64,000 nucleotides of DNA from Belliella baltica DSM 15883 (GTDB lineage: Bacteria; Bacteroidota; Bacteroidia; Cytophagales; Cyclobacteriaceae): the NCBI RefSeq assembly GCF_000265405.1, contig NC_018010.1:1736001-1800000 (forward strand), in the 5' to 3' direction. The notes below the pieces were generated by a model. It was not told where the DNA came from. It made no database searches and worked only from the letters and a program-made list of their open reading frames with translations. Below, in pieces: positions 1-53,634 of the stretch (position 1 is the first letter of the stretch; the number at the start of each line of letters is the position of its first letter). A program made the translations under genes and the position numbers.

Positions 1-15
1 AAACTTTCTAAATAT

Positions 16-53
16 AAAGAGGCTGATCTAATTTTGACGACAGCCTCTTTTTT
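16..53 (+). terminator. Hairpin just upstream of first lipoprotein gene
   Basis: A 10-bp perfect stem (AAAGAGGCTG with CAGCCTCTTT), a 15-nt loop and a T run form an intrinsic-terminator shape. The T run ends 20 nt before the ATG at 74. The same placement, a hairpin directly before a propeller lipoprotein, recurs at 5002 and 51866, where a small peptide gene lies upstream. A gene therefore probably ends just left of base 1. Confidence 0.75.
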
Positions 54-73
54 AAATTCTTTATTCTATCTAC

Positions 74-1249
74 ATGTTTAAATTTACTAAACTAATTATT
101 CTAATGCTTTCATGTTTGATTTTGGTTTATTGTAATCAAAAATCTATTGATAGTAGTGATTTCCAAGACAGGTTTGCCCTAACTGAAGAAGACGGACTAG
201 TCATCCCATTAGATAGTGTCAGCCCACCCAAAGCTCCTTTTATTCAATTATTAGAAGAAGATAATATCCTAACTTTTTTCAATGCCTACAACACCTCAAT
301 TTATTGGTACGATTTAAGTCAAAATGAATACCTGGAAAGAACGGTTCTTACATCTGAGGGAGAGAATCAAGTACTAAGACCAGTGGGATACCATATCTTG
401 AATAGAGATTCAATATTTGTCTTCGATATGCTCAAGAATGACTTGGTTTTGTTAAATGATAAAGGAAAAAAGTTAAGTGTAACTTCGCTGATAAACAATG
501 CACCAATGAATGATAATAATTGGATATTATCTTATCCGCAGTTTTTCCCTAAAACCGTTACCCCATTCATTAAGGTCGATAACAAATTGGTTTTTTCGGG
601 TAGTTTCATGTGGGCTATTCCTGATAATATCTTGAATTCTTTCAAATTCACGGCTTCTTTGAGTTTAGACAACAATGAAATAGTTTATAACCACTCTTAT
701 CCAAAAACTATATATGGTAGCAAGTTCAATTGGGATGATCCTTACTATACCACCGTACATTATGATTGGAACCCAATTGAAAAATTAATGGTCTATAGTT
801 TTCCGATATCCAATAGCCTATTCACTGCTTCCCTTGAAAGTGAAGATTTGAATGAAATCAAGGCGCTTGAAAGTGGTTCAAAAACGGTAAAGCCCATCTC
901 AAATAAGAGACCTACTAGAGAAATGATGCTCAATCACTTGATCGAATCAGATATCTATGCAGGGATCAAATTTGATAAATATAAAAATGTATATTATCGG
1001 GTTTTGATGAATGGATTGTCAGATACTGGAGGTTTTAAAGATTTATCTGGAAAGTCGATCAGCATCATCATTTATGATCACAAGTTCAATTTATTGGGAA
1101 AAACGAATATTGGGACATTAAAAAACTGGAATGTTGATAATATGATGGTGTCTCAAGATGGACTTCTTATAGAGTACATTGATTTTCAATCAAGCAATGA
1201 AGATTATATGATTTTTAAACTATTTAAGCTAATAGAGAATGAAAATTAG
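74..1249 (+). CDS. Beta-propeller lipoprotein, DUF4221-like
   Basis: A 391-residue protein with a lipoprotein signal: a basic N-terminus, a hydrophobic core and a lipobox ending at Cys20 (Cys14 is a weaker alternative). It is therefore probably anchored in an outer or inner membrane leaflet. The rest is soluble and rich in short beta strands with D-x-x-G and N-D-K-G turns, as in the 6-bladed propeller lipoproteins (DUF4221/TolB-like) common in Bacteroidota. Family placement is by overall pattern and is moderately sure. No enzymatic motif is visible and the function is unknown. It overlaps the next gene by 11 nt, so the two are translationally coupled with the MG2 protein as a third member. 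Confidence 0.8.
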   Translation: MFKFTKLIILMLSCLILVYCNQKSIDSSDFQDRFALTEEDGLVIPLDSVSPPKAPFIQLLEEDNILTFFNAYNTSIYWYDLSQNEYLERTVLTSEGENQVLRPVGYHILNRDSIFVFDMLKNDLVLLNDKGKKLSVTSLINNAPMNDNNWILSYPQFFPKTVTPFIKVDNKLVFSGSFMWAIPDNILNSFKFTASLSLDNNEIVYNHSYPKTIYGSKFNWDDPYYTTVHYDWNPIEKLMVYSFPISNSLFTASLESEDLNEIKALESGSKTVKPISNKRPTREMMLNHLIESDIYAGIKFDKYKNVYYRVLMNGLSDTGGFKDLSGKSISIIIYDHKFNLLGKTNIGTLKNWNVDNMMVSQDGLLIEYIDFQSSNEDYMIFKLFKLIENEN

Positions 1250-1700
1250 GTTATTAAGTTCAGTATTCATTATCTGTGCCTCAATTTGTTTTTTATTTTC
1301 TTGTGAAAGTAAAGACGAAGGCAAAGTGTATTACGAACAACAATTAACAAAGCTGGATGGAATTTCGTCCTATAAATATGTGATAATACTCCCGGGACTA
1401 GGTTGTCAAGGGTGTATCTCAGGTGTAGAAGAATACATTAAAAATAACATTGAGAGAAATGATATTTTTTTTATACTCACAGCTATTGAATCATTGAAAA
1501 TGTTACAAAATAAAATAGGTGTTGATTTAAGAAATAGAGATAATGTATTGATTGATTTAGATAATGAGTTTTTATTAACTTCAAATAAAAGTATTTACCC
1601 CATTGTATTGAGGTTGGAAGGGTCACATATCAAAGCATTGGATTATATATCACCAGAAACAGACAAAACATTAGTAGATATAGTAACTTGGGATGATTAA
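1239..1700 (+). CDS. Thioredoxin-like CxxC lipoprotein
   Basis: A 153-residue lipoprotein with a signal sequence ending in lipobox Cys22. Strand-like residues 47-52 lead into a Cys-Gln-Gly-Cys pair at 56-59, the placement expected for the active site of a thioredoxin-like fold. The classic WCxxC tryptophan is absent, so ordinary disulfide reductase activity is uncertain. It starts inside the stop region of the upstream propeller gene and overlaps the downstream MG2 gene by 8 nt, giving a tight three-gene operon. A similarly placed CxxC lipoprotein follows the propeller gene at 51917-53098. By position it could act on disulfides of a nearby cysteine-rich secreted peptide; this is inference. 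Confidence 0.75.
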   Translation: MKIRLLSSVFIICASICFLFSCESKDEGKVYYEQQLTKLDGISSYKYVIILPGLGCQGCISGVEEYIKNNIERNDIFFILTAIESLKMLQNKIGVDLRNRDNVLIDLDNEFLLTSNKSIYPIVLRLEGSHIKALDYISPETDKTLVDIVTWDD

Positions 1701-4227
1701 ATACCGCTTTATTTTATATTTAATTTTTTTAAGCTTGAGCAATTTTGTTCAAAGCCAAACTTTGTACGAGAAAGTATTGGTTGCAGAATTTGAAGAAAAA
1801 GCAAGGAAAAATGCCAGACCTATTGAGTATTTGCAGACAGACAAAGATATCTACGAGACTGGAGAGCAGCTTTGGTTCAAATTTTTGCAACTTGATGGAC
1901 AATTTTTAAGTCCATACCAAGGAGATAGCATCTTGTATCTAAGATTAGTGAATCAAATAAGTAGGGAAGTTTTTTGGGAAGAGAAGTATGGCATTTACTC
2001 AGGATTCACAGATGGTATGGTTCTCTTAAATGAAAACCTAAATCCCGGTATTTACAATTTGGAAGCCTATTCGCCTTCATCCGTCTATCATGAAATGAAA
2101 GACTACCATGCTTTTAAGGAGATAGAGATCAGACAGTTTATCAATCCAGAGATCATCATCAGACACAATTTATCTGATCAAGATGATTATTCTGACACTT
2201 TAAACCTGATCGTATCTGATAAGCAGGGTAATAGATTGTCAGATGCTAAAATTCAAATTACTTGGCTCAACTCAAAAAGGAAATCAATACATGAAACCAC
2301 CTTTCAGTCAAATCTTGAAGGAAGATTAGAAATTCCTCTCAATAGAACAGGAAGTCAATGGATTGACCTGGATGTTACTTTAGGAAATAAGCATGTTTTC
2401 CAAAGAATAGAGCTGAAAGACATCACAAATCCCAAAGAGATAACCTTTCACCCAGAAAGTGGAAAATTAATTCATAATCAAGAAAGCTTTGTAATGCTGT
2501 CAGCTGCTGGGGATAATAATGAAAATCAAACAAGGCAGGGAGTATTGTTGAAAGATGGAGAAATACTTCAATTCATCAATATGGGAAGTGATGGATTGGG
2601 TAAATTTAAAGTAAAGCCAGAGAAAGGGTCATCTTACAGAATTTTATGGAATGATACACCCTCAGATACAATGACCGTATTTGATCAGATCGAGGATCGC
2701 GGAGTCACCATTAACCTAAATACTTTGGCTGACACCCTCCTGATGACAATACAAACCTCTTGGCCTGGTCAAAAACACTTTTTGAGGCTACAAGTGAGGG
2801 GTATCGTGCATGTTTTCCATGAATTGATACTTGAAGACAATTCCCAAATTAAGATTCCATTGACAAATATTCCCTCAGGAATAGCAGAGATCGCGATATT
2901 CAATGATCAAGCTGAACCACTTGGGGAAAGATTAACATGGATAGAGAATAATGGAAAACTGATTGTTGAAGCCAAGCTCAATCAACAGGAGTACGGAAGC
3001 AGAGAAAAAGTTAAAGTCACCTTTACAGTGAAAGATTCAAAAGGCACCCCGCTTGAAGGTGTACAATTAGGAGGAACTGTATCGGACAAGCTTTACCAGA
3101 ATTCTAGATACAATAGAAGCTTATATACCTTTGCCCATATAATTACGCAAATGGGGACGAATCCAAATCTTGAATCAATACTAAGTTTATCAGAGGAAAA
3201 TGATTTTAGAAAAATCAATAATATTCTAGAATCGAGCAATATTGAAAAATACATTTGGTTGGAACAAAAATTTGAAAACTATAGAACAGTAGAATACCCT
3301 CTAGGAAATAAGCTTACTGGCCAGATAAAATATAGGAATTCTAGCAAAGAGAATGATTCCAAATATGGGCTTTTATTTAGGGGAGATAATGAAGGTAATA
3401 CAGCATTTATTCCATTGGATCAAGAGGGGAATTTTGAAATCTACCCTGAAGAGTTAGACTTTGGTAAAGATGAATACCTCTACATAAAAGCCCTACCAAA
3501 AGGGTCAAATGAAATAATTCTTAAAATAAAAGACCCCTTTGAAGAATTATCATCGATTCTAAAAACAGCGAGATTTAACTTCCCAAGTATAGATTATGGT
3601 GGTTCAAATCAAAAACTGGATCTTCCTACTTTTGATAGGAATATGATCCTTCTAAGTGAATTTGTAGTAAGAGGAAAGCGAATGGAGCAGGACAGAGAAA
3701 AATTCATTGGTGAATTAGCTGAAAGAGCAAAATTTGATTTTAATGATGATTTTGTTTGTCAATATGGTGACCTATTAAATTGTCCTATTTGTAGTTATAC
3801 TGACAAAAAACCGATAGAAGGAAAAGAATATCTTGTAATTACAGGTGATGTCCTAAAAATCGCTGGAGGAAGTCATTACATTATCAAAAAAGATCCTAGT
3901 TATACACATAGTCACAAAATTTACGAATACCCAAAATACACCGATGAAGAATTGATGAAGTTGTATAATATGACAAGGACCAAGGGTTTTTTTGTGGGGT
4001 CAGGGTTTCAATTCAAAGAATATCCTGATCATGAATCAAAAAATGATCCTGAGGCTGATTATAGAAATACGTTGGGATGGTATCCTTATCTTTTTACAGA
4101 TTCCAATGGAAAAGCGGAGATTGAGCTTTATACTTCAGACAATCGATCCATATTTGCAGGCAATTTTGAAGTCCTTAGTGCAGATGGAAAAATGGGTAAA
4201 GTGAACTTTGAGTTTGTTGTGAAATAA
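1693..4227 (+). CDS. MG2 (macroglobulin-like) domain surface protein
   Basis: An 844-residue exported protein. Residues 1-21 look like a signal peptide cleaved by signal peptidase I (VQS/Q). Residues about 40-130 carry the Y-x-x-G-E-x-x-W-F-K pattern typical of MG2 domains in alpha-2-macroglobulin-like proteins of Bacteroidota. Further Ig-like or macroglobulin segments lie near 170-240 and 430-470. The C-terminal 60 residues (TDSNGKAEI, SDNRSIFAGNFEV) match the closing beta domain of such proteins. A stretch near 650 (LSEFVVRGKR) recalls plug-linker text of TonB-linked proteins. Cys689, Cys697 and Cys700 form an unusual C-x7-C-x2-C cluster. It is the last gene of the operon starting at 74. 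Export and fold are fairly sure; the function is not known. Confidence 0.8.
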   Translation: MIKYRFILYLIFLSLSNFVQSQTLYEKVLVAEFEEKARKNARPIEYLQTDKDIYETGEQLWFKFLQLDGQFLSPYQGDSILYLRLVNQISREVFWEEKYGIYSGFTDGMVLLNENLNPGIYNLEAYSPSSVYHEMKDYHAFKEIEIRQFINPEIIIRHNLSDQDDYSDTLNLIVSDKQGNRLSDAKIQITWLNSKRKSIHETTFQSNLEGRLEIPLNRTGSQWIDLDVTLGNKHVFQRIELKDITNPKEITFHPESGKLIHNQESFVMLSAAGDNNENQTRQGVLLKDGEILQFINMGSDGLGKFKVKPEKGSSYRILWNDTPSDTMTVFDQIEDRGVTINLNTLADTLLMTIQTSWPGQKHFLRLQVRGIVHVFHELILEDNSQIKIPLTNIPSGIAEIAIFNDQAEPLGERLTWIENNGKLIVEAKLNQQEYGSREKVKVTFTVKDSKGTPLEGVQLGGTVSDKLYQNSRYNRSLYTFAHIITQMGTNPNLESILSLSEENDFRKINNILESSNIEKYIWLEQKFENYRTVEYPLGNKLTGQIKYRNSSKENDSKYGLLFRGDNEGNTAFIPLDQEGNFEIYPEELDFGKDEYLYIKALPKGSNEIILKIKDPFEELSSILKTARFNFPSIDYGGSNQKLDLPTFDRNMILLSEFVVRGKRMEQDREKFIGELAERAKFDFNDDFVCQYGDLLNCPICSYTDKKPIEGKEYLVITGDVLKIAGGSHYIIKKDPSYTHSHKIYEYPKYTDEELMKLYNMTRTKGFFVGSGFQFKEYPDHESKNDPEADYRNTLGWYPYLFTDSNGKAEIELYTSDNRSIFAGNFEVLSADGKMGKVNFEFVVK

Positions 4228-4563: not shown

Positions 4564-4616
4564 ACATCTAGTGTAAACAAATACAATTGTGATTTAAACG
4601 GATAAAATGTGTAAAT

Positions 4617-4759
4617 AACTGTTGTTTTGTTATTTTTATAAACTTAAATTATTCAAATTATTATAAACTAAAAATTTGCTTCTTTCTTTCTTTCTTTCTT
4701 GTTACCAGCTTTATTAGTAGTCAAACTTTTAGAGTCAATAAAATCATATTTTAACCAAA
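4617..4759 (+). promoter_or_regulatory. Duplicated leader with microsatellite, copy 1
   Basis: The leader of the peptide gene at 4772. It holds a weak Bacteroidota -7-like box AAAATTTG (4671-4678), then four CTTT units (4682-4697), then a conserved stretch containing GTTACCAGCTTTATTAGT. It is about 90 percent identical by eye to 8104-8240. The repeat would lie at or just after the transcription start if the box is real. The promoter assignment is inference; the duplication is directly visible. Confidence 0.6.
4682..4700 (+). repeat. CTTT tetranucleotide microsatellite, four units
   Basis: Four perfect CTTT units plus a partial unit, directly after the putative -7 box. The equivalent tract in the second leader has five units (8160-8179), and the third has four ATTT units (35462-35477), so both length and unit vary. 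Confidence 0.9.
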
Positions 4760-4771
4760 ACAAAAATTGTT

Positions 4772-4996
4772 ATGATGAAAAAATTAAAAAGCTCTTTAAT
4801 GCTCGCATTTCTTGTAGGATCAGCATTTATGTTTAGCAATCCATTTTTGACAGCTCAATCTGTTGATCCTCTTCCTGGTAACCATATTTGTTGTCCAACG
4901 GGTAATGGATGTGTTGATAGGCAAGGATATGAGTTTAAGTATGATGAAAGTAGGGTAGCTTCTACTTGTACTGTAGCTGAGCCTGAAATTCATTAA
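4772..4996 (+). CDS. Small secreted cysteine-rich peptide
   Basis: A 74-residue precursor with a strong signal peptide (basic MMKKLKSS, hydrophobic core, TAQ cleavage site near residue 29). The mature part is about 45 residues with four cysteines, including CCPTGNGC. The C-x5-C spacing recurs in the peptide at 51667 (CCTGSGSC) and in the broken one at 36765. It sits upstream of a propeller lipoprotein with a strong hairpin between them, as in Bacteroides NVEALA-peptide loci, though no NVEALA motif is present. It may be an exported signal, toxin or structural peptide; the function is unknown. Translation can start at either of two adjacent ATGs. Confidence 0.75.
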   Translation: MMKKLKSSLMLAFLVGSAFMFSNPFLTAQSVDPLPGNHICCPTGNGCVDRQGYEFKYDESRVASTCTVAEPEIH

Positions 4997-5001
4997 GAAC
5001 C

Positions 5002-5032
5002 AATAAAGGAGACAACTCTTGTCTCCTTTATT
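5002..5032 (+). terminator. Strong hairpin between peptide and lipoprotein genes
   Basis: A 12-bp perfect stem (AATAAAGGAGAC with GTCTCCTTTATT) and a 7-nt loop, lying 5 nt after the peptide stop and 14 nt before the lipoprotein ATG. It lacks a long T run. It may act as a partial terminator, a 3'-end stabiliser of the peptide mRNA, or both. Confidence 0.75.
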
Positions 5033-5046
5033 ATATTTAACTTACT

Positions 5047-6117
5047 ATGAAAAATATTTCTTTGATAATTTTATTGTTTTGTCTTCTCAGTTGTGTTGAA
5101 AAAGACCAAAAATCCATTTTTGATCAAAAACATCCAGAATTTGAATTGAAAGGTGTTAAGCTTGAGTATAAAGAGATTATAGACCCGTGGAAGATAGACC
5201 AAAAGAACTCTTACATAATTATACAAGAAAAAGATATCATTCCAGAGGATCAACCACTGATACATATTATAGATAAGAAAACAAATGAAATTGTTAATTC
5301 GAAAGGAGTCATAGGATTTGGTCCTCTAGAGATTACAGATGCCCATATATTTGACCCAGGGAATTCCGAAGATACTTTTTGGGTCAATTCGGTGACGGGT
5401 AAAAAACTATCTGAATTTTCACTCTTAGACACCTCTAGATTGGCTGTCAATGAATTCAGGCAAACAGAACCGATGATTTTGGCTTACAAAGTTTACCTGA
5501 CAAGAGATAACACTTTTCTATGCTTGATGGCAGATAGTCCCTACAAATTAGTTGAATTTGATAGTCAGGGAAATTTCTTGAAAGGTCATGGAAAGTGGGA
5601 GCCTATAGCTAAATATAAAGAACTTGACGATTATTTATTGGGAACTTATAATAAGGGAGAATTAAAGACTAATTCAAAAAAAGATTACTTTGTTAAAGTT
5701 AGCTTATACAGGGATAGAATTGAAATTTTTGATTATAACTCAAAGTCTTTCAATATTATTGACGGTCCTAGAATGGAATTGCCTGAGGTAAATATTTCTG
5801 GAACTGGATCAAATGCCTCAATGGGTTTTAGGTTTGATCAAATATACGGTTATCGGGACGTTTCTATCACAGAGAATTTTTTATTCTTGCTATACAGTGG
5901 TTATAGCCAACTTGAGATAAGTCAAACAGGAATAGAAGCACTCACCGTTTACATGATGACTACTTCAGGTAAATTAGTCGCAAAATTTACACTAGATATA
6001 GGAATCAGAAGTTTAGCTGTTGACGAAAGATTAGGGAAAATATATGGCGTGACCAGAGACGAAAATCCAGGTATTGCAGTATTTGACTTCCCAAAGCATT
6101 TATTGAATAATCCCTAA
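5047..6117 (+). CDS. 6-bladed beta-propeller lipoprotein, BF3164-like
   Basis: A 356-residue lipoprotein with a signal sequence and lipobox ending at Cys16. Features match the BF3164/TolB-like propeller lipoproteins of Bacteroidota: an early G-x-I-G-x-G-P-x-E-I segment near residue 95, blade-like repeats, and a final blade with RSLAVDERLGKIYGV. No catalytic motif is visible. It follows the small peptide at 4772 with only the hairpin between them, so it probably shares that transcript at a reduced level. It has no CxxC or MG2 partner downstream; repeats and the IS66 element follow instead. The function is unknown; a receptor or carrier for the peptide is one possibility by context. Confidence 0.8.
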   Translation: MKNISLIILLFCLLSCVEKDQKSIFDQKHPEFELKGVKLEYKEIIDPWKIDQKNSYIIIQEKDIIPEDQPLIHIIDKKTNEIVNSKGVIGFGPLEITDAHIFDPGNSEDTFWVNSVTGKKLSEFSLLDTSRLAVNEFRQTEPMILAYKVYLTRDNTFLCLMADSPYKLVEFDSQGNFLKGHGKWEPIAKYKELDDYLLGTYNKGELKTNSKKDYFVKVSLYRDRIEIFDYNSKSFNIIDGPRMELPEVNISGTGSNASMGFRFDQIYGYRDVSITENFLFLLYSGYSQLEISQTGIEALTVYMMTTSGKLVAKFTLDIGIRSLAVDERLGKIYGVTRDENPGIAVFDFPKHLLNNP

Positions 6118-8105: not shown

Positions 8106-8240
8106 TGTTGTTTTTATAAACTTAAATTTTTTAAAATATTTTAAACTAAAAATTTGCTTCTTTCTTTCTTTCTTTCTTTCTTGTTACCAGCTTTATTAGT
8201 GGTCAAACTTTTAGAGTCATTAAAATCATATTTTAACATA
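8106..8240 (+). promoter_or_regulatory. Duplicated leader with microsatellite, copy 2
   Basis: Nearly identical to 4617-4759, but placed before the 522-residue lipoprotein gene at 8253 instead of a peptide gene. It carries the AAAATTTG box (8149-8156), five CTTT units, and the GTTACCAGCTTTATTAGT segment. The right end of the IS66 element abuts it. The conserved part stops about 13 nt before the ATG, so only regulatory sequence was duplicated. Confidence 0.65.
8160..8179 (+). repeat. CTTT tetranucleotide microsatellite, five units
   Basis: Five perfect CTTT units. One more unit than in copy 1 at 4682. Confidence 0.9.
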
Positions 8241-8252
8241 ATTCAAAAAAAG

Positions 8253-9821: not shown

Positions 9822-10353
9822 ATCTATTGTTTTTATTTGTTTTTTATTTTGTTTCATTGGTAACACCTTTGGACAAACAGAAAATGTTGTTAGAATAAAC
9901 TTCTTAAATCCAAGTCTTACAATAGAAAGGGTTCTAAGTCCAAAAACAACTTTTGAGGCTGGTGTTGGTTTTGGGTATAATGGTTCGTATCCTGATTTGG
10001 CATTTGCCTCAGAAAGTGGGATTCAATATATATTTGCAGGGTTTGTGGATCTTCAGAGCAGATATTATTATAACCTGGAAAAACGACAAAATAAGGGCAA
10101 AAAAATAGGGTCAAATTCCGGAAATTTCTTTGCCTTGAGAATGCTTTATACAGGCCCAGATGTTGCAAGTAATTTTATTCGATTTGATAATAATTCATTT
10201 GCTGTAGGACCTACTTGGGGGATTCAAAGAGCTTATGGGAAGTTTAATTTAGCTTATAGTATGGGTCCAATATATTATTTTAACACTAGTGGAAGTCACA
10301 ATTGGTTTCCTCTGATATTGGAAATAAATTTTGGGTATAATCTTGGACGATAA
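9814..10353 (+). CDS. Small outer-membrane beta-barrel-like protein
   Basis: 179 residues with a cleavable signal peptide (FGQ/TEN near residue 21), followed by alternating hydrophobic and aromatic strands: TTFEAGVGFGYNG, GFVDLQSRYYYNL, FALRMLYTG, LAYSMGPIYYF, LILEINFGYNLGR. This pattern fits a small outer-membrane barrel with about eight strands. The family is not recognised. It starts within the end of the upstream lipoprotein gene (8-nt overlap) and is followed by a strong hairpin. Confidence 0.7.
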   Translation: MIRSIVFICFLFCFIGNTFGQTENVVRINFLNPSLTIERVLSPKTTFEAGVGFGYNGSYPDLAFASESGIQYIFAGFVDLQSRYYYNLEKRQNKGKKIGSNSGNFFALRMLYTGPDVASNFIRFDNNSFAVGPTWGIQRAYGKFNLAYSMGPIYYFNTSGSHNWFPLILEINFGYNLGR

Positions 10354-10359
10354 ATTCTT

Positions 10360-10388: not shown

Positions 10389-10401
10389 TATTTGAAAATC
10401 T

Positions 10402-35419: not shown

Positions 35420-35478
35420 TAATTTAAATTGTTCAAAATTTTTTAAACTAAAAATTTGCTTATTTATTTATTTATTTA
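35420..35478 (+). promoter_or_regulatory. Leader with microsatellite, copy 3, cut by ISL3 element
   Basis: AAATTGTTCAAAATT, then TTTTAAACTAAAAATTTGCTT, matches the leaders at 4640-4680 and 8110-8160. The box AAAATTTG is at 35451-35458, and four ATTT units (35462-35477) replace the CTTT units. The leader stops at the left end of the ISL3 element. About 90 bp and a start codon that would be expected before the peptide gene are missing. Confidence 0.6.
35462..35477 (+). repeat. ATTT tetranucleotide microsatellite, four units
   Basis: Four perfect ATTT units abutting the IS left end; same place as the CTTT tracts of the other two leaders. Confidence 0.85.
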
Positions 35479-36762
35479 GGCTCTATATGATTTGTAGTGG
35501 GTAACTGAAACAAAAGTTAAGAAAGTCTTAAATTTGTTTGATGAACAGCAACCAGATTTTTGAGATGGCGCTTTGCTTGGAGAAGCCTTGGCAGATAAAA
35601 GAAATAGTAATGACTAAACCTGATGGAGTAAATCAAGGTCAGATAGATATTCATATTGATTTTGAAAGGGGACACAAATTCCATGGAGGTAAGACCCACG
35701 ATACTGTTGAAAGAACATGGCAACATCTCAATTTTTTTCAGCATAAATGTTTTTTGCATGCAAGGGTTCCAAGAATACAAACAGCGGATGGCAAAACTGA
35801 GACCGTTAAGGTTCCATGGGCGCGTCCTGGCAGTGGTTTTACGCTAATGTTTGAGGCTTACAGTATGCTGCTCATTGAGTCTGAAATGCCTGTAACCAAA
35901 GCAGCTGACATTATGGATGTATACCCCCAACGCATATGGAACGTGTTTTCATATTGGATCAACAAGGCCCATAAGTCTGCAGATCATTCAGGAATTGAGA
36001 TATTAGGAATAGACGAAACATCCTCCAAGAAAGGCCATTCTTACGTTACTGTAGCTGTTGATATGGACGAACGGAAAGTAGTCTATGCAGTGCCTGGAAA
36101 AGGTGCGGATACAATTGACAAAGTTGCTAAACATCTTGAAAATAAGGGCTGTAAAAGAGAACAGATAAGACAAACCTGTATAGACATGTCACCTGCATTC
36201 GTATCAGGAATTCTACATAACTTCAAGGATGCTTCGATTACTTTTGATAAATTCCACATTGTCAAATTCATCAATGAGGCTATGGATAAAGTTCGAAAAC
36301 TTGAGCGAAAGGAGTTTGCTATGTTGAAGGGATATAAATATACATTCCTGAAAAATAACCGAAACCTAAGTGAAAGTGCCAAAGAAGATAAATACAATAT
36401 TCTGATGCTGATGCCAAACTTGGCAAATGCTTACAGATTAAAGGAGCTATTCAATGAATTCTGGACTTTTAAGGATAAAGAACAGGCAACAGCTTATCTA
36501 GCATATTGGTGTGACCTTGTAAAAGAATCCGGAATCTTTCCTTTTATTGATGCTGTAAAGACAATTCAAGCACATTGGTTCGGGATCATAACCTATACAG
36601 AAACCAATTTGACAAACGGCATACTCGAGGGTATTAATTCAAAAATCCAATTGGCAAAAAAAAGAGCAAGAGGTTATAGGAATATCTCCAACTTTATCAA
36701 CATGATTTACTTCATCTCTGGAAAACTCAAATTCGACTACCCACTATATTCCACCTAGAGCC
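35479..36762 (+). mobile_element. ISL3-family insertion sequence
   Basis: A 1284-bp element with imperfect 25-bp terminal inverted repeats (19 of 25 match). The left end begins GGCTCTATATGATTTG and the right end, read inward, begins GGCTCTAGGTGGAATA; both continue to TAGTGGGTA. It encodes one intact transposase. The 8-bp flanks TTTATTTA and TTAAATTT are not an exact target duplication, which suggests a deletion at the insertion site. Confidence 0.88.
35538..36758 (+). CDS. ISL3-family transposase
   Basis: 406 residues. An N-terminal zinc-ribbon-like part with degenerate residues is followed by a helix-turn-helix (VTKAADIMDVYPQRIWNVFS, about 115-134). The DDE core is intact: GIDETSSKKGHSYVTV, CIDMSPAFVSGI, and TNGILEGINSKIQLAKKRARGYRN, which carries the final Glu. 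This order is characteristic of ISL3 transposases. The stop codon lies within the right inverted repeat. It appears functional. Confidence 0.92.
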   Translation: MMNSNQIFEMALCLEKPWQIKEIVMTKPDGVNQGQIDIHIDFERGHKFHGGKTHDTVERTWQHLNFFQHKCFLHARVPRIQTADGKTETVKVPWARPGSGFTLMFEAYSMLLIESEMPVTKAADIMDVYPQRIWNVFSYWINKAHKSADHSGIEILGIDETSSKKGHSYVTVAVDMDERKVVYAVPGKGADTIDKVAKHLENKGCKREQIRQTCIDMSPAFVSGILHNFKDASITFDKFHIVKFINEAMDKVRKLERKEFAMLKGYKYTFLKNNRNLSESAKEDKYNILMLMPNLANAYRLKELFNEFWTFKDKEQATAYLAYWCDLVKESGIFPFIDAVKTIQAHWFGIITYTETNLTNGILEGINSKIQLAKKRARGYRNISNFINMIYFISGKLKFDYPLYST

Positions 36763-36764
36763 TT

Positions 36765-36980
36765 AAATTTACAATTCTTACATTATTCGTTAGTTTTAGT
36801 TTAACTGCACAAACAACAAATCCACCTGAGGAAGAAGAAGAATCAGAAGAACCAGGTTGTGCTGCTATTGTTAGATGCTCTGAATCTAGTGAGGTTTCGT
36901 GTACAGGTGAAGTAGTATGTTCAGCTAATGCCATTGAAAGATGGGTTAAATGTGATAACTCACTTAGGAAATATTGTTGA
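36765..36980 (+). pseudogene. Cysteine-rich secreted peptide gene lacking its start
   Basis: Directly after the ISL3 right end the frame reads KFTILTLFVSFSLTAQ, the body of a signal peptide with a TAQ cleavage site. A mature part of about 55 residues follows, with a poly-Glu stretch and six cysteines in C-x5-C and similar spacings (CAAIVRC, CTGEVVC). No start codon remains between the transposase TAG and this sequence, although both share the same frame. The peptide belongs with those at 4772 and 51667. It lies 11 nt upstream of the propeller lipoprotein. Probably not translated unless the stop is read through. Confidence 0.75.
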
Positions 36981-36991
36981 TAATTAATTCA

Positions 36992-38038
36992 ATGAAGTTA
37001 AGTAGTTTAAAGTTCAGGGACACCAATTTGATTATGTCTCTTTTTTTATTTATCTGTTGCACGTCAGAACAGAAGGAACTGGATTTGTCTTTAAAATTAG
37101 AGGCTTCTTATTTTGGTGAAGGTGCAAAAGAAGAGTTCCCGATGCGTCCACCAATTGGAATGTCATATCTTGATGGTAATCTTATGTTTGCAGAATCAGG
37201 AGATTTAGCAAGACTTCTAATTGTCAAGGATAATTTTAAAGTTGTAGAAAAGATAAGTCAAGCAGGGGAAGGGCCAGATGATTTGGTGTTTATAGAAAAG
37301 CCAACTCTATATAATAAAAAGTACTTTTCAATCCCAAGCCTTGAGAAATATAAAATCTTTGATTCGCAGGGAAATTTTTTCAAAGAAACCTTAACAAAGC
37401 AGGTTTCAATGGAATTTCATTCAGCATGGTTGGGAGATTCTACCATTGTTTATACTGCTGTTGAAGGGGATGCCCCAATTAATCGATTTAATATTAATAC
37501 GGGAGAATTAGATTTTTTTGGTAGTTGGTCTAAAATAAAAGGATCAAAGACAAAAGTAAGAGGAATGAGCACTGGGGATGTATTTGTTTCTAATTCTGGT
37601 AATCATTTTGTTTTAATAAGACATTCTGATCCGATTGTAGATCTTTTAGATGGCGAATTCAACTTAGTAGCACAATTGGATTTAAGTGAGTATGTTGATC
37701 ATATAAAGGAAACCCTTTCCTTTTATGAAACCAAAATTAATAAAGGTGACCCTTCTGAAGATTATTACTATTTAATTGGAGACGCTTATCAAGATGGTAA
37801 TTTAATCTTCTTATCAATCTTTGAAAATTATGAAGTACAGGAAAGTAAAAAACCACTTTTGAGGCAAAATAAAATTATCGAAATAGAAATTCTTGAAAGT
37901 AAAAAAACATTGAAGTTTAATGCACATTTTGATCTTTCTGATGGAGGCGATTACTATAATTGCATCACAGGAGATAGAAATACTCTTTTTGCTTTTAATG
38001 TACGGACATATGGAATAGACGTGTTTAATTTGCCATAA
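36992..38038 (+). CDS. 6-bladed beta-propeller lipoprotein
   Basis: 348 residues from ATG 36992. It has a lipoprotein signal with Cys22/Cys23 at the lipobox. The SQAGEGPDDLVFI segment (about 85-97) is the G-x-G-P-x-x-x signature of Bacteroidota 6-bladed propeller lipoproteins, followed by blade-like repeats. It lies downstream of the broken peptide gene; its original promoter is now separated by the ISL3 element, so expression may depend on the IS. A 7-bp hairpin (37016-37041) with a T run lies in its first codons. An alternative start at 37034 would fall after it but gives a poor signal sequence. The function is unknown. Confidence 0.78.
   Translation: MKLSSLKFRDTNLIMSLFLFICCTSEQKELDLSLKLEASYFGEGAKEEFPMRPPIGMSYLDGNLMFAESGDLARLLIVKDNFKVVEKISQAGEGPDDLVFIEKPTLYNKKYFSIPSLEKYKIFDSQGNFFKETLTKQVSMEFHSAWLGDSTIVYTAVEGDAPINRFNINTGELDFFGSWSKIKGSKTKVRGMSTGDVFVSNSGNHFVLIRHSDPIVDLLDGEFNLVAQLDLSEYVDHIKETLSFYETKINKGDPSEDYYYLIGDAYQDGNLIFLSIFENYEVQESKKPLLRQNKIIEIEILESKKTLKFNAHFDLSDGGDYYNCITGDRNTLFAFNVRTYGIDVFNLP
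37016..37047 (+). terminator. Weak hairpin with T run at the lipoprotein start
   Basis: AGGGACA pairs with TGTCTCT (one G-T pair), followed by seven T residues. It is similar in position to the peptide/lipoprotein hairpins at 5002 and 51866, but here it lies inside the first codons of the predicted gene. Confidence 0.4.
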
Positions 38039-49568: not shown

Positions 49569-49930
49569 TTTATGAAAATTTGGAATTCAATTCCTAATAT
49601 GCATAAAATATTTGATAATGAAAATACTTAATGGTCTAAATTAGGTAATTTTAGATTTTATTTCATTTCAATGGTTGTACATGTTTTGTTCTATATTATG
49701 TTATATTCTAGTTATATTTAGCGCGTGCTGAAAAACGTCATTTGTAAAGTTAATGGCATTATTTTGAATGAGTAGTCTGTTTATTAGGCGTAAGGTTTAT
49801 CAGCAAGTACAAGCTTTTGAGTTGAATTAAGAGGGATTTTATTTAGATTTCCATATTGTATAAATCCGGAATTAATTTCGGATTTGTACAAAATATCAGA
49901 GTATTCAAAATTTTTTTAAAAATAGAAACA
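49569..49930. other. Intergenic region upstream of the duplicated cassette
   Basis: AT-rich, no gene seen. A perfect 7-bp inverted repeat AAATCCG ... CGGATTT (49863-49886) could form a hairpin. The duplicated leader follows from 49931 to 50020. Confidence 0.5.
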
Positions 49931-50020
49931 TTCACTTGGACATACCAAAAGTAATCATGATCTTGAAGAAGCTTTTAGGTGAAGTTGTGTTAAAATGAGT
50001 TTTTTAAATAATCAGAATAC
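49931..50020 (+). promoter_or_regulatory. Leader fused directly to propeller gene
   Basis: Homologous to 51571-51666, which in unit 2 precedes the peptide gene. Here it is joined straight to the propeller ATG, so the lipoprotein now has the peptide's leader. No clear TAnnTTTG box is found. Confidence 0.55.
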
Positions 50021-51202
50021 ATGAAGAAAATATGTTTAACTCTTTTTTTATTTAGCATTCTTAGCTTGTTAAGTTGTGAAGACAAGAGTTCAACAAGTCG
50101 ATCACTTGATTCTACACCAAGAAAATTTGATGATGCAGTTACATTGGTTTCTGTTGACACAATATCTATTTCTATTGGACAAAGTACCAATGTGTTTTCT
50201 AATTATCTATCAAAAAAAAGAATCAAAGGCAAGGATTATTTGGGACTTGTAAATGAAAACACCAACCAATTAGAGTTTTATGGATTGTCGGATGATGCAG
50301 AGAATTTTAGCATCAAATATCAACAAGAAGGACCCAATGGAGTCAGAACAATCAAGGCATTTGAAGTTTTGTCTGACAGTACGCTATTGATTGGGAGTTC
50401 TTGGCGTCGTGAATTGTATATTTCAGATTTTAGTGGTAATCTTCTAAATAAGATAAATTCAGTAGAGAAGGATAGGGCTGACAGGAAGCCTTATGTTCAG
50501 ATTTACTACACAAACAAACCATTAATTTTTAGGGAAAAAACTCAATCTGTTTTTACTTTCTCTGGAGCAGATCAAGATTACTTTTCTCCGGGATTGTGGT
50601 CAGGTACTTATTTTGTGGAAATCTTAACCCTCGAAGGGCATGAAATGAAGCATACTTTGAATTTGCCTGAACATTTGTCACAATTGGTATATGGAGGTTT
50701 TTTTTCACATAGTTCACACTTATTAAAAGATGAAAATCAAATAGTAATTAGTTTACCCTTTCTAAATGATTTGTTGGTGTATGATTTAGATTCTGAGGAC
50801 ATTTCTTATGCAGAAGCTGGTCATAGCAGTTTTGGAGATCTTCTTCCTTTAGATAAGCCGATTCCAAGTAGAGACGAGCAGGATTATATTGAAAGTTACA
50901 CTTACCGTGAGATTGCTTATGATGATAAAACTGGTTACTTATATAGGTTTGCCTATGAAGGAGTGGATTACAAGGATTTGGATGGCAGAAGAAGGACATG
51001 GGATAATAAAAAGCCATCAATAATTATTTTAGATAAGGAGATGAAGAAGGTAGGGGAATATGTACTCCCTCAAAACCAATTCTATACAAGGATGTTCTTT
51101 ACCTATCAAGGAAAGTTATATGTTTCAATCAATCATCCAGATAATAATCCGTCTGAAGATGAGTTGATTTTTGTAGGATTAAAACCGGTTGATAAGTTAT
51201 GA
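50021..51202 (+). CDS. Beta-propeller lipoprotein, DUF4221-like (copy 1)
   Basis: 393 residues with lipobox Cys19. It is a close paralogue of the protein at 51917: residues about 65-135 and 320-393 are nearly identical, while 1-60 and 165-310 have diverged clearly. It has the same DUF4221/propeller character as the gene at 74. No enzymatic motif is visible. Its upstream peptide gene has been lost and its downstream CxxC gene reduced to a fragment, so it stands alone. The function is unknown. Confidence 0.82.
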   Translation: MKKICLTLFLFSILSLLSCEDKSSTSRSLDSTPRKFDDAVTLVSVDTISISIGQSTNVFSNYLSKKRIKGKDYLGLVNENTNQLEFYGLSDDAENFSIKYQQEGPNGVRTIKAFEVLSDSTLLIGSSWRRELYISDFSGNLLNKINSVEKDRADRKPYVQIYYTNKPLIFREKTQSVFTFSGADQDYFSPGLWSGTYFVEILTLEGHEMKHTLNLPEHLSQLVYGGFFSHSSHLLKDENQIVISLPFLNDLLVYDLDSEDISYAEAGHSSFGDLLPLDKPIPSRDEQDYIESYTYREIAYDDKTGYLYRFAYEGVDYKDLDGRRRTWDNKKPSIIILDKEMKKVGEYVLPQNQFYTRMFFTYQGKLYVSINHPDNNPSEDELIFVGLKPVDKL

Positions 51203-51275
51203 GAAAGGTGGAATTACGTTTGAAAATGTGGATAATCAGCTTCTTAAAATCTCTAAACATTTAGAAGAGAGCTAA
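51199..51275 (+). pseudogene. Remnant of thioredoxin-like lipoprotein gene
   Basis: Starts ATGAGAAAG, exactly as the intact gene at 53095, then jumps to the sequence of its last 66 nt (GGTGGAATTACGTTTGAAAA, corresponding to 53493 onward) ending TAA at 51273. About 390 bp including the CxxC codons are deleted and the junction is out of frame: the ATG frame stops at 51264. Decay by internal deletion, possibly through short GAAA-rich homology. Confidence 0.85.
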
Positions 51276-51570
51276 ACCCTCAAACATTTCAGGTTTTATT
51301 GATAATCAATCAGTTATTAGAATAAGTCTAATGAAATCTGTAAGGTTTTTATCGCTATAAATAAATCAATTATTGCAATATGGAAAGAATTGAAAGAATA
51401 CTAATAGAGCAGATTATGGAGATTGACACAGATAAATAATCAGTTTTAATCAGATCAATCAGCTTTTTAGATATTCTCGACATCAATTTAGTGTTATACT
51501 CAATATCAAAATAATCATTAATATGTCCTTTATCTTGTTTTTGAAACAATTTTCAGAAAAATATTAATAA

Positions 51571-51666
51571 TTACTTGCGCATAATAATAATAATAACAAT
51601 ATTGGAAGAGCTTTTAGGTTGAAGCTGCTCTGTAAAGAGTTTTTTAAATTTATAAATCGGAATACG
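51571..51666 (+). promoter_or_regulatory. Peptide gene leader with trinucleotide microsatellite
   Basis: Five ATA/AAT units (51581-51596) follow TTACTTGCGC, then a conserved stretch with GAGCTTTTAGGTTGAAG shared with 49968-49985. The rest of the 51276-51666 gap holds the decayed copy of the terminator region (51280-51345); no gene is seen. Confidence 0.55.
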
Positions 51667-51843
51667 ATGAAAAAGAAAGTAAGATTATTAGTAGCAGGTG
51701 CCATGTTGGTATTGTTTTCAGGAGGAGTTTACCTCGAAGTGTCAGCACAACGAGTTGGGGAAACAGGTTGGAAGAAATGGGATGGAAAAAACTGCTGTAC
51801 AGGATCTGGCAGTTGTCTAGTTACAGAAGCAGGTAATTGCTAA
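51667..51843 (+). CDS. Small secreted cysteine-rich peptide
   Basis: 58 residues from ATG 51667 (MKKKVRLL); an upstream in-frame start at 51619 would add a non-signal stretch from the leader. The signal peptide ends VSAQ near residue 28. The mature part is about 30 residues with two Trp and four Cys: CCTGSGSC, then a C-terminal Cys as last residue. C-x5-C is shared with the peptide at 4772 (CCPTGNGC). The architecture recalls Bacteroides NVEALA peptides: basic start, alanine/glycine-rich core, short Cys-containing tail, propeller lipoprotein next door. The function is unknown. Confidence 0.75.
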   Translation: MKKKVRLLVAGAMLVLFSGGVYLEVSAQRVGETGWKKWDGKNCCTGSGSCLVTEAGNC

Positions 51844-51865
51844 AATCAATCAATTTAAAAATTTT

Positions 51866-51904
51866 CATCCCTCTTGCTTCATGGGCAAGAGGGATGTTTT
51901 TTTA
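51866..51904 (+). terminator. Strong hairpin between peptide and lipoprotein genes
   Basis: A 12-bp perfect stem CATCCCTCTTGC / GCAAGAGGGATG, a 7-nt loop and an 8-T run, 22 nt after the peptide stop and 12 nt before the propeller ATG. By shape it is an intrinsic terminator, so the propeller gene would be read through only partially. Confidence 0.85.
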
Positions 51905-51916
51905 AAATCAGGAAAT

Positions 51917-53098
51917 ATGGAAAAAAAACATTTACTTCTTTTTTTATTTAGCATTATTAGCTTAATAAGTTGTGAAGAACAAGCTTCGACGCGTCATTCA
52001 CTTGATCCTTCACCTAGAAAATTTGATAATATTATTACATTGGTTTTTGATGATACGTTATCTATTCCAATTGGACAAAGAACCAATGTGTTTTCTAGTT
52101 ACATATCAAAAAAAAGAATCAAAGGCAAGGATTACTTGGGACTTGTAAATGAAAACACCAACCATTTAGAGTTTTATGGATTATCAGATGATGCAGAGAA
52201 TTTCAGCATAAAATATCAACAAGAAGGCCCCAATGGAGTCAGGACAATCAAGGCATTTGAAGTTTTGTCTGATAGTACACTATTGATTGGGAGTTCTTGG
52301 CGTCGTGATCTGTATGTTACAGATTTTAGTGGTAATGTTCTGAATAAGATAAATTCAGTAGAGAAGGAGAGGGCTGATGGGAAGCCTTATGTTCAGATCT
52401 ACTACACTGAAAAACCATTGATATATAGGGAAAAAAATCAATCTATTTTTACTTTCGCTAAAGCTGATCAAGATTACAATTCACCTGGGTTATGGTCAGG
52501 GACATATTTTGCTAAATTTTCATTGCTAGATGGTCAAGTCATGGAGCATTCATTAAGTTTACCAGAGCATTTGTCGACTTTAGTATATAGTGCTTTTTTT
52601 TCGCATAGCTCACACTTACTATATGGAAAGAACCAATTGATAGTTAGTTTACCATTTTTAAATGATCTTTTAATTTATGATTTGGATTCAGAGACGGTTA
52701 CTTACGGAGAGGCGGGTCATAGTGAATATGGTGATATATTACCACTCGATAAACCAAGCCAGGATCATGACGAGCAAGAGTATTTAGAGAGTAATTCATA
52801 CCGTGAGATAGCTTATGATAATGAAACTGGTTACTTGTATAGGTTTGCCTATGAAGGAATGGATTACAAGGATTTAGATGGCAGAAGAAGGACATGGGAT
52901 AATAAAAAGCCATCAATAATTATTTTGGATAAGGAGATGAAGAAGGTAGGTGAATATCATCTTCCTATAGATCAGTTTTACACAAGGATGTTCTTTACCT
53001 ATCAAGGTAAGTTATATGTTTCAATCAATCATCCTGATAATAATCCTTCTGAAGATGAGTTGATTTTTGTTGGAATAAAACCGGTTGATAAGTTATGA
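51917..53098 (+). CDS. Beta-propeller lipoprotein, DUF4221-like (copy 2)
   Basis: 393 residues from ATG 51917, chosen because it gives a proper lipoprotein signal (MEKKH, lipobox Cys19); the frame runs back to 51881 through the hairpin. Same length and fold type as the copy at 50021, with mosaic divergence. It lies after the peptide gene and hairpin, and overlaps the CxxC lipoprotein by 4 nt. Context suggests a membrane-anchored partner of the peptide and CxxC protein. Confidence 0.82.
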   Translation: MEKKHLLLFLFSIISLISCEEQASTRHSLDPSPRKFDNIITLVFDDTLSIPIGQRTNVFSSYISKKRIKGKDYLGLVNENTNHLEFYGLSDDAENFSIKYQQEGPNGVRTIKAFEVLSDSTLLIGSSWRRDLYVTDFSGNVLNKINSVEKERADGKPYVQIYYTEKPLIYREKNQSIFTFAKADQDYNSPGLWSGTYFAKFSLLDGQVMEHSLSLPEHLSTLVYSAFFSHSSHLLYGKNQLIVSLPFLNDLLIYDLDSETVTYGEAGHSEYGDILPLDKPSQDHDEQEYLESNSYREIAYDNETGYLYRFAYEGMDYKDLDGRRRTWDNKKPSIIILDKEMKKVGEYHLPIDQFYTRMFFTYQGKLYVSINHPDNNPSEDELIFVGIKPVDKL

Positions 53099-53559
53099 GA
53101 AAGATGTTTTTAGTGGTGCTTTTGGTAAGCACTTTTGCGTGTACAAGTCAAAATACACATAAGGAAGAATTTGGTAAATTGGTTGATTTATTGGCAGATC
53201 AAATGTCTGATGAAATTGAAGCAGTAGTGATAATTCCATTGGAAAATGCATGCTCCTCCTGTTCCCAAATGACAATCGTTAAGTTACCTAGAATGGAAGA
53301 AATTGAAAAGTCTTCCATACATTTGATCTTCACGGCTCGCTCTGGAAAATTGATTGAGGAGACGCTTACAGATGCAGGTCTAGAAGATTTTCAAATACAA
53401 AAAGACCCCAAATATGAAGCATGGAAAATGGGAATGGTTGACAATAATCCATCCTATTATTTGCTGAAAGGAGGAAAATTAATCGAAAAAGGAGGGATTA
53501 CTTTTGAAAATGTAGATGAACAGCTTCTCAAAATCTCTAAACATTTAGAAAAGAGCTAA
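53095..53559 (+). CDS. Thioredoxin-like CxxC lipoprotein
   Basis: 154 residues with lipobox Cys16. VVIIPLENACSSCSQM places a C-x-x-C pair (Cys53, Cys56) after a first beta strand, and NPSYYLLKGGKLIEKGG (about 122-138) looks like the cis-proline and following strands of a thioredoxin fold. It overlaps the propeller stop by 4 nt (ATGA). It is a positional counterpart of the gene at 1239. A decayed copy exists at 51199. Its likely substrate by context is the Cys-rich peptide; not shown. Confidence 0.78.
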   Translation: MRKMFLVVLLVSTFACTSQNTHKEEFGKLVDLLADQMSDEIEAVVIIPLENACSSCSQMTIVKLPRMEEIEKSSIHLIFTARSGKLIEETLTDAGLEDFQIQKDPKYEAWKMGMVDNNPSYYLLKGGKLIEKGGITFENVDEQLLKISKHLEKS

Positions 53560-53565
53560 ATCCTC

Positions 53566-53634
53566 AAACCTTTCAGGTTTTATTTATAATCAATCGGTTG
53601 TTAGATTTAGTCTAATGAAACCTGAAAGGTTTTT
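53566..53634 (+). terminator. Terminator of the cassette
   Basis: Arms AAACCTTTCAGGTTT and AAACCTGAAAGGTTTTT with a loop of about 37 nt, directly after the CxxC gene. A degenerate copy follows the remnant at 51280-51345. Confidence 0.65.

Follow-up and report, generated by a model that had tools for sequence, protein, structure and literature searches.

Fast-diverging mini-operons of an exported cysteine peptide, a propeller lipoprotein and often a CxxC lipoprotein recur in Bacteroidota

In Bacteroides, the NVEALA family (PF14055) consists of small peptides that are exported and have a cysteine tail, and the peptides described here are like them in these respects. The DUF4221, TolB_like and DUF5128 families are annotated singly, and the family names and descriptions that we examined hold no association with a peptide and a CxxC protein. 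A DUF4221 structure has been solved (3s9j), and among open-licence papers, preprints aside, we found no published function for NVEALA or DUF4221. In methylamine dehydrogenase, a cysteine-rich small subunit sits on a propeller subunit. Here we describe fast-diverging mini-operons, repeated in many Bacteroidota genomes, that encode an exported cysteine peptide together with a propeller lipoprotein and, in many cases, a CxxC lipoprotein. The system is apparently undescribed, and a search of the open-licence literature (no preprints; judged by titles and the starts of abstracts) found no report of such a cassette.

The window analysed is a stretch of 64,000 nucleotides from Belliella baltica DSM 15883 (NC_018010.1, positions 1,736,001 to 1,800,000), and five of its loci, here called A (1-4227), B (4772-6117), C (36765-38038), D (49931-51275) and E (51571-53634), represent a single cassette, either as copies or as remnants. 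Its order from 5' to 3' is a leader, often with a simple repeat, followed by an exported cysteine peptide, a terminator-like hairpin, a propeller lipoprotein (DUF4221 or TolB_like) and an overlapping CxxC lipoprotein. In window positions, the features are:

A, about -306 to -67, just 5' of the window: peptide, 79 aa
A, 16..53 (hairpin 16-50), + strand: terminator-like hairpin between peptide and propeller, AAAGAGGCTG/CAGCCTCTTT plus T-run
A, 74..1249, + strand: propeller lipoprotein, DUF4221 (PF13970, 2.5e-31, 109.9 bits, cut-off 23.4)
A, 1239..1700, + strand: CxxC (GCQGC) lipoprotein, predicted thioredoxin-like (AF2 pLDDT 85.8, thioredoxin-like matches; no Pfam family)
A, 1693..4227, + strand: MG2-domain protein behind the CxxC gene (PF01835, 33.0 bits, cut-off 32.8)
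B, 4628..4770, + strand: leader carrying a (TTTC)n repeat (about 4675-4699; pattern site)
B, 4772..4996, + strand: exported peptide, 74 aa, CCPTGNGC (ORF; signal peptide by simple rule)
B, 5005..5029, + strand: hairpin
B, 5047..6117, + strand: propeller lipoprotein, TolB_like (PF15869, 5e-16, 59.3 bits, cut-off 29.2)
C, 35421..35477, + strand: part of the leader, interrupted by the IS and carrying a (TTTA)n repeat (84% over 57 nt to the B leader)
C, 35478..36763, + strand: ISL3 element inserted in the cassette (DDE_Tnp_ISL3, 7e-71)
C, 36764..36980, + strand: peptide frame lacking a start codon (SCTG..C....RWVKCD....YC)
C, 36974..38038, + strand: putative lipoprotein, 354 aa (outside all Pfam families; neither a profile match nor a homologue apart from its own record)
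D, 49909..50028, + strand: leader, relative of the E leader (71% over 127 columns to 51548-51674)
D, 50021..51202, + strand: orphan propeller, DUF4221 (PF13970, 3.8e-20, 73.2 bits, cut-off 23.4)
D, 51199..51276, + strand: CxxC remnant, 3' end only (51201-51413 84% identical to 53485-53700)
E, 51574..51596, + strand: TTGC box and (ATA)n repeat
E, 51667..51843, + strand: exported peptide, 58 aa, CCTGSGSC (ATG at 51667)
E, 51866..51903 (hairpin 51866-51896), + strand: terminator-like hairpin plus T7 (score 42.5)
E, 51917..53098 (ORF 51881), + strand: propeller lipoprotein, DUF4221 (PF13970, 4.2e-21, 76.3 bits, cut-off 23.4)
E, 53095..53559, + strand: CxxC (CSSC) lipoprotein, predicted thioredoxin-like (A1/A3 family member)

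Cassette E (51571-53634) is complete, and on sequence comparison D is a decayed tandem copy of it: the two share 83% DNA identity over the propeller, and D is without peptide, hairpin and most of the CxxC gene. The leaders of A and B are 83.6% identical over 250 nt, and the CxxC gene overlaps the propeller gene by 11 nt in A and by 4 nt in E, as a preliminary description of this DNA had it (4-11 nt). In C, the inverted repeats of the ISL3 element (35478-35503 and 36738-36766) are 76% complementary, and the broken peptide resembles one encoded in a different genome of the family, at 28% over 74 columns and with E 1e-5 as a single comparison. The preliminary description had seen one plan at five loci, and all five are present, but the "propeller" of C is unproven, because the product of 36974 has no Pfam family and no propeller-profile match. 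Neither BLASTP, hhalign (E 0.068, probability 0.8%) nor a profile search (E 3.3) showed it to be a propeller, and its own record was the sole homologue found. The MG2 protein, proposed there as a recurrent partner, was seen behind cassette A only; the gene listing, read by eye, shows none behind the other nine CxxC cassettes of this genome.

The recurrence of the peptide-propeller-CxxC plan is borne out beyond the window. A propeller-sized ORF lies immediately 5' of 84 among the 86 CxxC-family ORFs collected, and in 54 cases a cysteine peptide precedes it. Within this genome an upstream cysteine-peptide ORF is found at 18 of 39 propeller genes vs 2 of 199 other genes (Fisher p = 2e-14), which is the enrichment that had been suggested as a test of the idea. 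All ten DUF4221 genes with a CxxC neighbour have a peptide, as do three of the 15 without, so the CxxC gene is not obligatory. The association is incomplete in the other direction as well: by a strict rule 32 of the 86 CxxC loci have no peptide (in the relatives set, 10 of 19). When the rule was relaxed, candidates emerged at a few of these loci and none at most, and a scan of named genomes detected no peptide at 32 of the 67 DUF4221 relatives that were usable. Behind the CxxC gene, an ORF of at least 280 aa follows in 30 of 84 loci. Of these third genes, the six compared with Pfam reached no model's cut-off, the three compared with propeller profiles matched none, and at least two of the 30 (L044 and L191) are, by eye, unrelated genes. 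In the part of the flanks (1-3 kb) that was listed and read by eye, neither a sensor kinase nor a regulator stood out near the cassettes.

The peptides begin with a Sec-type signal peptide; their mature part is some 30-70 residues long and usually contains four cysteines. The "-AQ" signal-peptide end noted earlier is not a general feature, and the C-x5-C motif, which does hold for all three window peptides, is present in just 2 of the 10 CxxC cassettes of this genome. Cysteine spacing differs between peptide classes and, as far as the sequences tell, follows propeller relatedness: a cysteine framework is shared by 74% of the 90 pairs whose propellers are 25-60% identical vs 19% of all 1275 (0 of 5000 permutations), a conservation that had likewise been put forward as decisive. 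The cysteine number is even in 51 of 57 peptides (P = 3e-10). Between orthologs, most changes in the mature peptides are silent (omega of 0.04-0.29 across 10 selected pairs), and at the protein level the peptides change faster than the propeller in six of ten pairs. One might suppose that there is no system and that AT-rich leaders simply contain these small reading frames by chance, since a search of 5.8 billion proteins gave peptide E just four relatives (one of them probably its own record; the two with names come from Belliella) and none of the 28 scanned peptides has a Pfam family. The silent-site bias of the mature peptides already contradicts this, the enrichment, even cysteine numbers and conserved spacing stand against it too, and we regard it as having next to no probability.

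We tentatively favour a reading, slightly more apt to fail than to hold, in which each cassette is a cognate envelope peptide-receptor pair, a thioredoxin-like lipoprotein sets the disulfides and the peptide is made in excess of the propeller. Transcription would start at the TTG-type box seen in the leader. Simple repeats occur in 12 of 54 leaders vs 4 of 146 controls; where present, the repeat would form the very start of the transcript, and changes in its length could adjust expression. The leader pattern recovered one cassette missed by family searches, and no known RNA family reached gathering score in the window. A hairpin score of at least 28 was obtained in 34 of 50 peptide-propeller gaps, 3.6% of shuffles and none of 54 propeller-CxxC junctions. 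Resembling an intrinsic terminator, the hairpin may let just part of the transcripts continue, and peptide would thereby exceed propeller. The peptide, predicted to be exported by a Sec-type route, would form disulfides, as its even cysteine numbers and conserved spacing suggest. The envelope-anchored propeller lipoprotein would bind its own peptide, to which their linkage and the way peptide class follows propeller relatedness both point. A recognised lipobox is present in 58 propellers, 42 of which have no more than one cysteine in the mature part; of the two partners, then, it is usually the peptide alone that could hold a disulfide. The cell might in this way perceive or discriminate the peptide of self or of neighbours, a recognition role that fits the many diverged cassettes per genome, their patchy distribution and the decayed copies better than housekeeping. 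Counting against this reading are the CxxC loci and DUF4221 genes at which no peptide was detected, the peptides found without a CxxC gene, the six ortholog pairs whose mature peptide outpaces the propeller at the protein level, the poor rank correlation of propeller and CxxC similarity, and the flanks, in which no regulator was noticed.

The same excess of peptide, apparently indicated by the hairpin, would also suit antagonism, in which the peptide is a secreted bacteriocin-like toxin, the propeller an envelope immunity protein and peptide-less propellers orphan immunity against the peptides of relatives. Such a role would sit well with the ten diverged CxxC cassettes in this genome and with copy D, whose propeller ORF stays intact after the loss of peptide and CxxC gene. 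Twelve of the 25 DUF4221 genes of this genome, including the four best PF13970 matches, have no detected peptide, and cassette A has in common with a second genome of the genus a segment of more than 99% identity, 5' of which the DNA has diverged. Yet most of the mature peptides are acidic (the median net charge is -3, and 79% of 57 have a charge of zero or less), unlike typical cationic peptides, their silent-site bias speaks against it, and no dedicated exporter or protease was noted by eye in short flanks without systematic annotation. We consider antagonism unlikely, though the most substantial of the alternatives.

Returning to the peptide-receptor reading, the partner proteins can be described more closely. 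The propeller-slot proteins belong to DUF4221 (PF13970), TolB_like (PF15869) and DUF5128 (PF17170), and the modelled E propeller (51881; AF2 pLDDT 83) has 3s9j as its nearest structure (Foldseek E 4e-22, TM 0.73/0.81). The preliminary description had placed the system at the surface and let the propeller bind or export the peptide; binding is what we infer, and export is not supported. A surface location is not favoured by a crude search for an export motif of surface lipoproteins behind the lipid cysteine, which found it in none of 58 propellers and in 3 of 60 CxxC proteins; two or more acidic residues follow that cysteine in 15 of 58 and 17 of 60, respectively. The CxxC protein is predicted, from a thioredoxin-like model, to have the thioredoxin fold, and no Pfam thioredoxin or redoxin model matched ten members or the A protein. 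Both cysteines are invariant in 27 of 27 aligned rows, themselves picked partly by the motif, and the motif is absent in 2 of 86 family ORFs. The E CxxC protein has three homologues among 5.8 billion proteins. The findings are consistent with action on the peptide disulfides, which this lipoprotein, its gene usually overlapping that of the propeller, would make or proofread. Propeller and CxxC similarity are weakly correlated by rank over the whole set (Spearman 0.27; Pearson 0.74), but among the paralogs of this genome Spearman is -0.10 (Pearson 0.68) despite a Mantel result of 9/5000 by Pearson, and we therefore do not use co-evolution within the genome as support.

The trio of part types is also that of methylamine dehydrogenase, and the peptide could be a permanent disulfide-rich subunit of the propeller, with the CxxC protein as a MauD-like maturation factor. 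A MauE family gene follows one cassette of this genome (peptide and 359-aa lipoprotein, G000 3885230), and a Foldseek search with the propeller lists the MADH large subunit (2gc4_A) at rank 18 with TM 0.36, where many unrelated propellers score alike. A report that in Streptomyces MauE and MauD stand next to cysteine-rich precursors (PMC7794033) also counts in this direction. MauE was nevertheless found in that one cassette only (by Pfam model in this genome, by phmmer at other loci), and we rejected it as a general cassette part. A bound subunit would call for 1:1 stoichiometry, against the peptide excess that the hairpin suggests, the peptides are very diverse, and no cofactor or electron acceptor gene was noted; we judge this arrangement improbable. 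More improbable by far is a relay in which peptide and CxxC protein, docked by the propeller, exchange electrons or bind a metal ion: both have conserved cysteines, but the peptide spacing varies between classes and the listings, read by eye, gave no sign of a metal transporter or redox enzyme that recurs next to the cassettes.

The link to NVEALA drawn in the preliminary description holds at the level of the system, because Pfam NVEALA peptides fill the cassette's peptide slot, directly 5' of a DUF4221 relative, at two gut Bacteroidaceae loci (L278, 49.9 bits; L307, 34.5 bits; PF14055 cut-off 27), one of which also has a CxxC lipoprotein. The window peptides are not members, having no PF14055 match; with E allowed up to 10, this genome gave four matches, all of them below the cut-off and away from the window loci, and 148 genomes of the phylum gave two, also below it. 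It is a doubtful but conceivable extension of the peptide-receptor reading that recognition of this kind spans the Bacteroidota, with diverging, partly repeat-tuned cassettes, each providing a disulfide peptide, its own propeller receptor and a dedicated thioredoxin-like lipoprotein. NVEALA would be one branch, repeat length at the transcription start would vary peptide dose, and kin would be sensed or discriminated by shared pairs. Through the cassettes, database families with no assigned function (NVEALA, DUF4221, TolB_like, DUF5128 and unnamed CxxC lipoproteins) come together as one testable unit, many times repeated in some genomes and present also in gut Bacteroides. The Bacteroidota would gain a family of exported peptides whose partners are defined, and peptide-propeller binding would offer a direct assay for genes so far without one.

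Set against the described systems, the window peptides differ from NVEALA in having plain signal peptides without the NVEALA leader. The CxxC proteins share their motif and a thioredoxin-like model with the TlpA/ResA/CcmG/FetE type, but are small lipoproteins tied to a propeller operon and have no Pfam thioredoxin match. With methylamine dehydrogenase and MauD/MauE the cassettes have in common a propeller, a small cysteine-rich partner, a thioredoxin-like helper and, in a single cassette, MauE, whereas no sequence relation of their parts to its subunits is shown. Bacteriocin-immunity pairs are alike in the small exported peptide and linked envelope protein, in orphan partner genes and in a sign of interspecies exchange; the cassettes differ in that no dedicated exporter is noted, their peptides are acidic and the partner protein is much larger.

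The five loci of the window belong to a set of cassettes in which an exported cysteine peptide is linked to the gene of a propeller lipoprotein, is set off from it by a terminator-like hairpin, carries signs of cysteine pairing and is matched in its class to its propeller. We read such a cassette as encoding a peptide, the propeller that is its cognate partner and, as dedicated disulfide helper, the thioredoxin-like CxxC lipoprotein. All five were confirmed where the preliminary description had placed them, with Pfam families as follows.

1-4227: cassette A, DUF4221 propeller; its peptide lies just 5' of the window start
4772-6117: cassette B, TolB_like propeller
36765-38038: cassette C, interrupted by an ISL3 element directly behind the leader repeat; 354-aa putative lipoprotein (the 36974 gene)
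49931-51275: cassette D, DUF4221 propeller; a copy of cassette E in which peptide, hairpin and the greater part of the CxxC gene are missing, propeller ORF intact
51571-53634: cassette E, DUF4221 propeller

The preliminary description had missed the cassette A peptide only because the window starts immediately 3' of it. Pfam, homologue and propeller-profile searches with the product of the 36974 gene gave no match. The cassette E peptide has two named relatives, both from Belliella and 77-84% identical to it. An IS66-type transposase gene (window 6527-8062) adjoins cassette B on its 3' side.

The window occupies positions 1736001-1800000 of the Belliella baltica genome (G000), which is 4.2 Mb in size and forms one contig. 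Propeller matches in this genome numbered 27 for DUF4221 (PF13970), 4 for TolB_like (PF15869) and 11 for DUF5128 (PF17170). Two split genes account for four of the DUF4221 matches, one for each half, and were scored as two, giving 25 genes; with two DUF5128 matches excluded for internal stops and the 36974 gene included, the propeller set comprised 39 genes. A peptide was taken to be an ORF of 40-100 aa with a signal peptide by our own scoring and at least two mature cysteines, ending no more than 450 nt 5' of the gene, a rule composed after several loci had already been inspected; signal peptides and lipoboxes were assigned by simple home-made rules rather than a trained predictor. By this one rule, applied to the fetched stretches of this genome, a peptide lay upstream of 18 of the 39 propeller genes, compared with 2 of 199 other genes (13/25 for DUF4221, 2/4 for TolB_like, 3/9 for DUF5128 and 0/1 for the 36974 gene). 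DUF4221 genes with a CxxC neighbour had a peptide in 10 of 10 cases, and those without one in 3 of 15; neither a peptide nor a CxxC neighbour was found at the four top-scoring PF13970 matches of the genome. The two control matches are themselves telling: one peptide precedes a 359-aa lipoprotein without a Pfam family, followed by a MauE family gene, and the other lies beside one of the excluded DUF5128 fragments. The former row of peptide, lipoprotein and MauE family membrane protein (L038, G000 3885230-3886954) is the sole MauE cassette found. A bound subunit like that of methylamine dehydrogenase is the next rival to our reading, ranking after the antagonism considered below.

The CxxC family extends the association of peptide and propeller to other genomes. 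Matches to its profiles came from 12 of the 59 genomes in the set of relatives, 34 of the 148 in the family set and 15 of the 296 in the phylum set; each of these sets is a sample that includes the own genome, and some weak partial matches are counted. In all, 74 stretches around CxxC matches, the weakest excluded, were merged with the own loci; L119 and L199 yielded no qualifying ORF, and 86 CxxC-family ORFs were pooled, two of them without the CxxC motif. An ORF of at least 250 aa ends at the start of the CxxC-family gene in 84 of the 86 (10/10 own, 18/19 relatives, 56/57 remaining), and a peptide lies 5' of that ORF in 54 (10 own, 9 of 19, 35 of 57), the 10 own loci having served to build the profile and not being independent in either count. 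At a few loci (e.g., L213, L219, L222) a third gene supplies the ORF directly 5' of the CxxC gene, and peptide and propeller lie further upstream. A relaxed search of the peptide-less CxxC loci gave candidates at a few (e.g., L115, L118, L190, L233, L237) and none at most. Scanning named genomes with one propeller group, picked for having peptides, yielded 75 loci, 67 of them usable and in part repeating earlier ones (e.g., L240-L242, L244, L246-L248); 35 had a peptide (for at least one of these, L262, inspection by eye shows a CxxC protein instead), 32 a CxxC gene and 22 both (Fisher p = 0.014). In one stretch (L188, genome G430) four peptide–propeller–CxxC cassettes, all complete, follow one another in tandem, with two peptides near-identical and a third similar, and at L193, L235, L114 and L038 two peptides, different or related, stand in succession. 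In 30 of 84 loci (e.g., L043, L054, L111, L194) the CxxC gene has another ORF behind it, in many cases some 320-360 aa long and bearing a signal peptide or lipobox; six of these ORFs were tested and matched no known family.

The peptides are genuine genes. In 10 chosen ortholog pairs changes in the mature peptide were mostly silent (omega 0.04-0.29, with some silent distances near saturation); at the protein level the mature peptide changed less than the propeller and CxxC proteins in four pairs, three of which form one trio, and more than the propeller in the other six. The mature peptides are mainly acidic (median charge -3), and the number of cysteines is even in 51 of 57 (P = 3e-10 against one half) and exactly four in 37. 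Cysteine spacing follows propeller relatedness: among 51 cassettes, those with a short propeller or CxxC ORF or without a peptide having been dropped, a framework is common to 74% of the 90 pairs at 25-60% propeller identity, compared with 19% of all 1275 pairs, a sharing matched by 0 of 5000 label permutations. The main rival to our reading is antagonism, in which the propeller would act as an immunity protein. For the cognate pair with its disulfide helper we infer both the steps and the purpose: the propeller would bind its own peptide, the CxxC protein would oxidise that peptide, the peptide would be in excess and the leader repeat would exert an effect.

A terminator-like hairpin scoring at least 28 occupies 34 of 50 peptide–propeller gaps (4 of 54 gaps being left out for length), whereas shuffled sequences reach this score in 3.6% of cases and none of the 54 propeller–CxxC junctions does. 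Propeller and CxxC genes overlap in most loci. This arrangement, hairpin in the gap and overlap beyond it, suggests an abundant peptide, with propeller and CxxC protein coupled at lower amounts.

Some of the leaders are marked by simple repeats. Of 54 cassettes, 12 have a repeat of at least 12 nt within 200 nt upstream of the peptide; the corresponding figures are 4 of 146 for controls (p = 4e-5) and, on average, 0.4 of 54 for shuffled leaders. Nine of the 12 come from the 18 peptide-bearing Belliella cassettes and three from the 36 others. The named-genome set had a repeat in 5 of 35 peptide leaders, including L244 and L248, already counted elsewhere. Within about nine bases ahead of each of the 12 repeats stands a TTG box, which reads TTGT in one case and TTGC or TTGG in the other 11; it may be the -7 element known from Bacteroidota promoters. 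The repeat units differ (TTTC, TA, ATA, AC, and TTTA in cassette C), and in three aligned ortholog pairs or trios with repeats the lengths differ and the flanks are conserved. Two leader patterns matched seven places in the own genome, five of which had served as their source, and reversed controls matched none; a cysteine peptide lies behind six of the seven. An extra cassette detected only in this way (L318, G000 3638667) encodes a peptide of 74 aa with six cysteines and a product of 390 aa; the latter matched no Pfam family and is propeller-like by its profile score of 34 bits. The seventh place precedes a 535-aa lipoprotein of no known family. Here the cassette B leader recurs (window 8106-8264, 87% over 164 columns), and window 8214-11079 holds the 535-aa product, which was judged a lipoprotein by eye and has a CxxC motif, followed by 179-aa and 225-aa genes; none of the three products has a Pfam family. 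In addition to the repeat, a CTTTTAGG-type segment is common to window 51597-51666 and several other leaders; its flanks are self-complementary as judged by eye, and it may represent a structured 5' leader; an Rfam search of the window matched no family.

The cassettes also show signs of turnover. Two stretches from two genomes of one genus (L041, L100) are more than 99% identical from about window -200 to at least +1980, the limit of the fetched sequence. The identity begins at a breakpoint inside the cassette A peptide gene and the DNA 5' of it has diverged, so the cassette A segment was likely exchanged recently.

The preliminary description had linked the window peptides to the NVEALA peptides (PF14055) found beside propellers in Bacteroides. 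The window peptides are not members of that family, and the link holds instead at the level of position. Two Bacteroidaceae peptides of the named-genome scan exceed the Pfam NVEALA cut-off (49.9 bits at L278, 34.5 bits at L307), and both lie directly 5' of a DUF4221 relative, L307 having a CxxC gene as well. The cassette A peptide has GKC-LS--C--A-GY--CDP in common with a Bacteroides peptide (L295; 12 of 21 residues, E 3e-7 as a single comparison), which likewise precedes a propeller and a CxxC gene, the CxxC active site there being ILPGLGCHGC and that of cassette A ILPGLGCQGC. The same slot is therefore common to the NVEALA peptides and to the cysteine peptides of the window.
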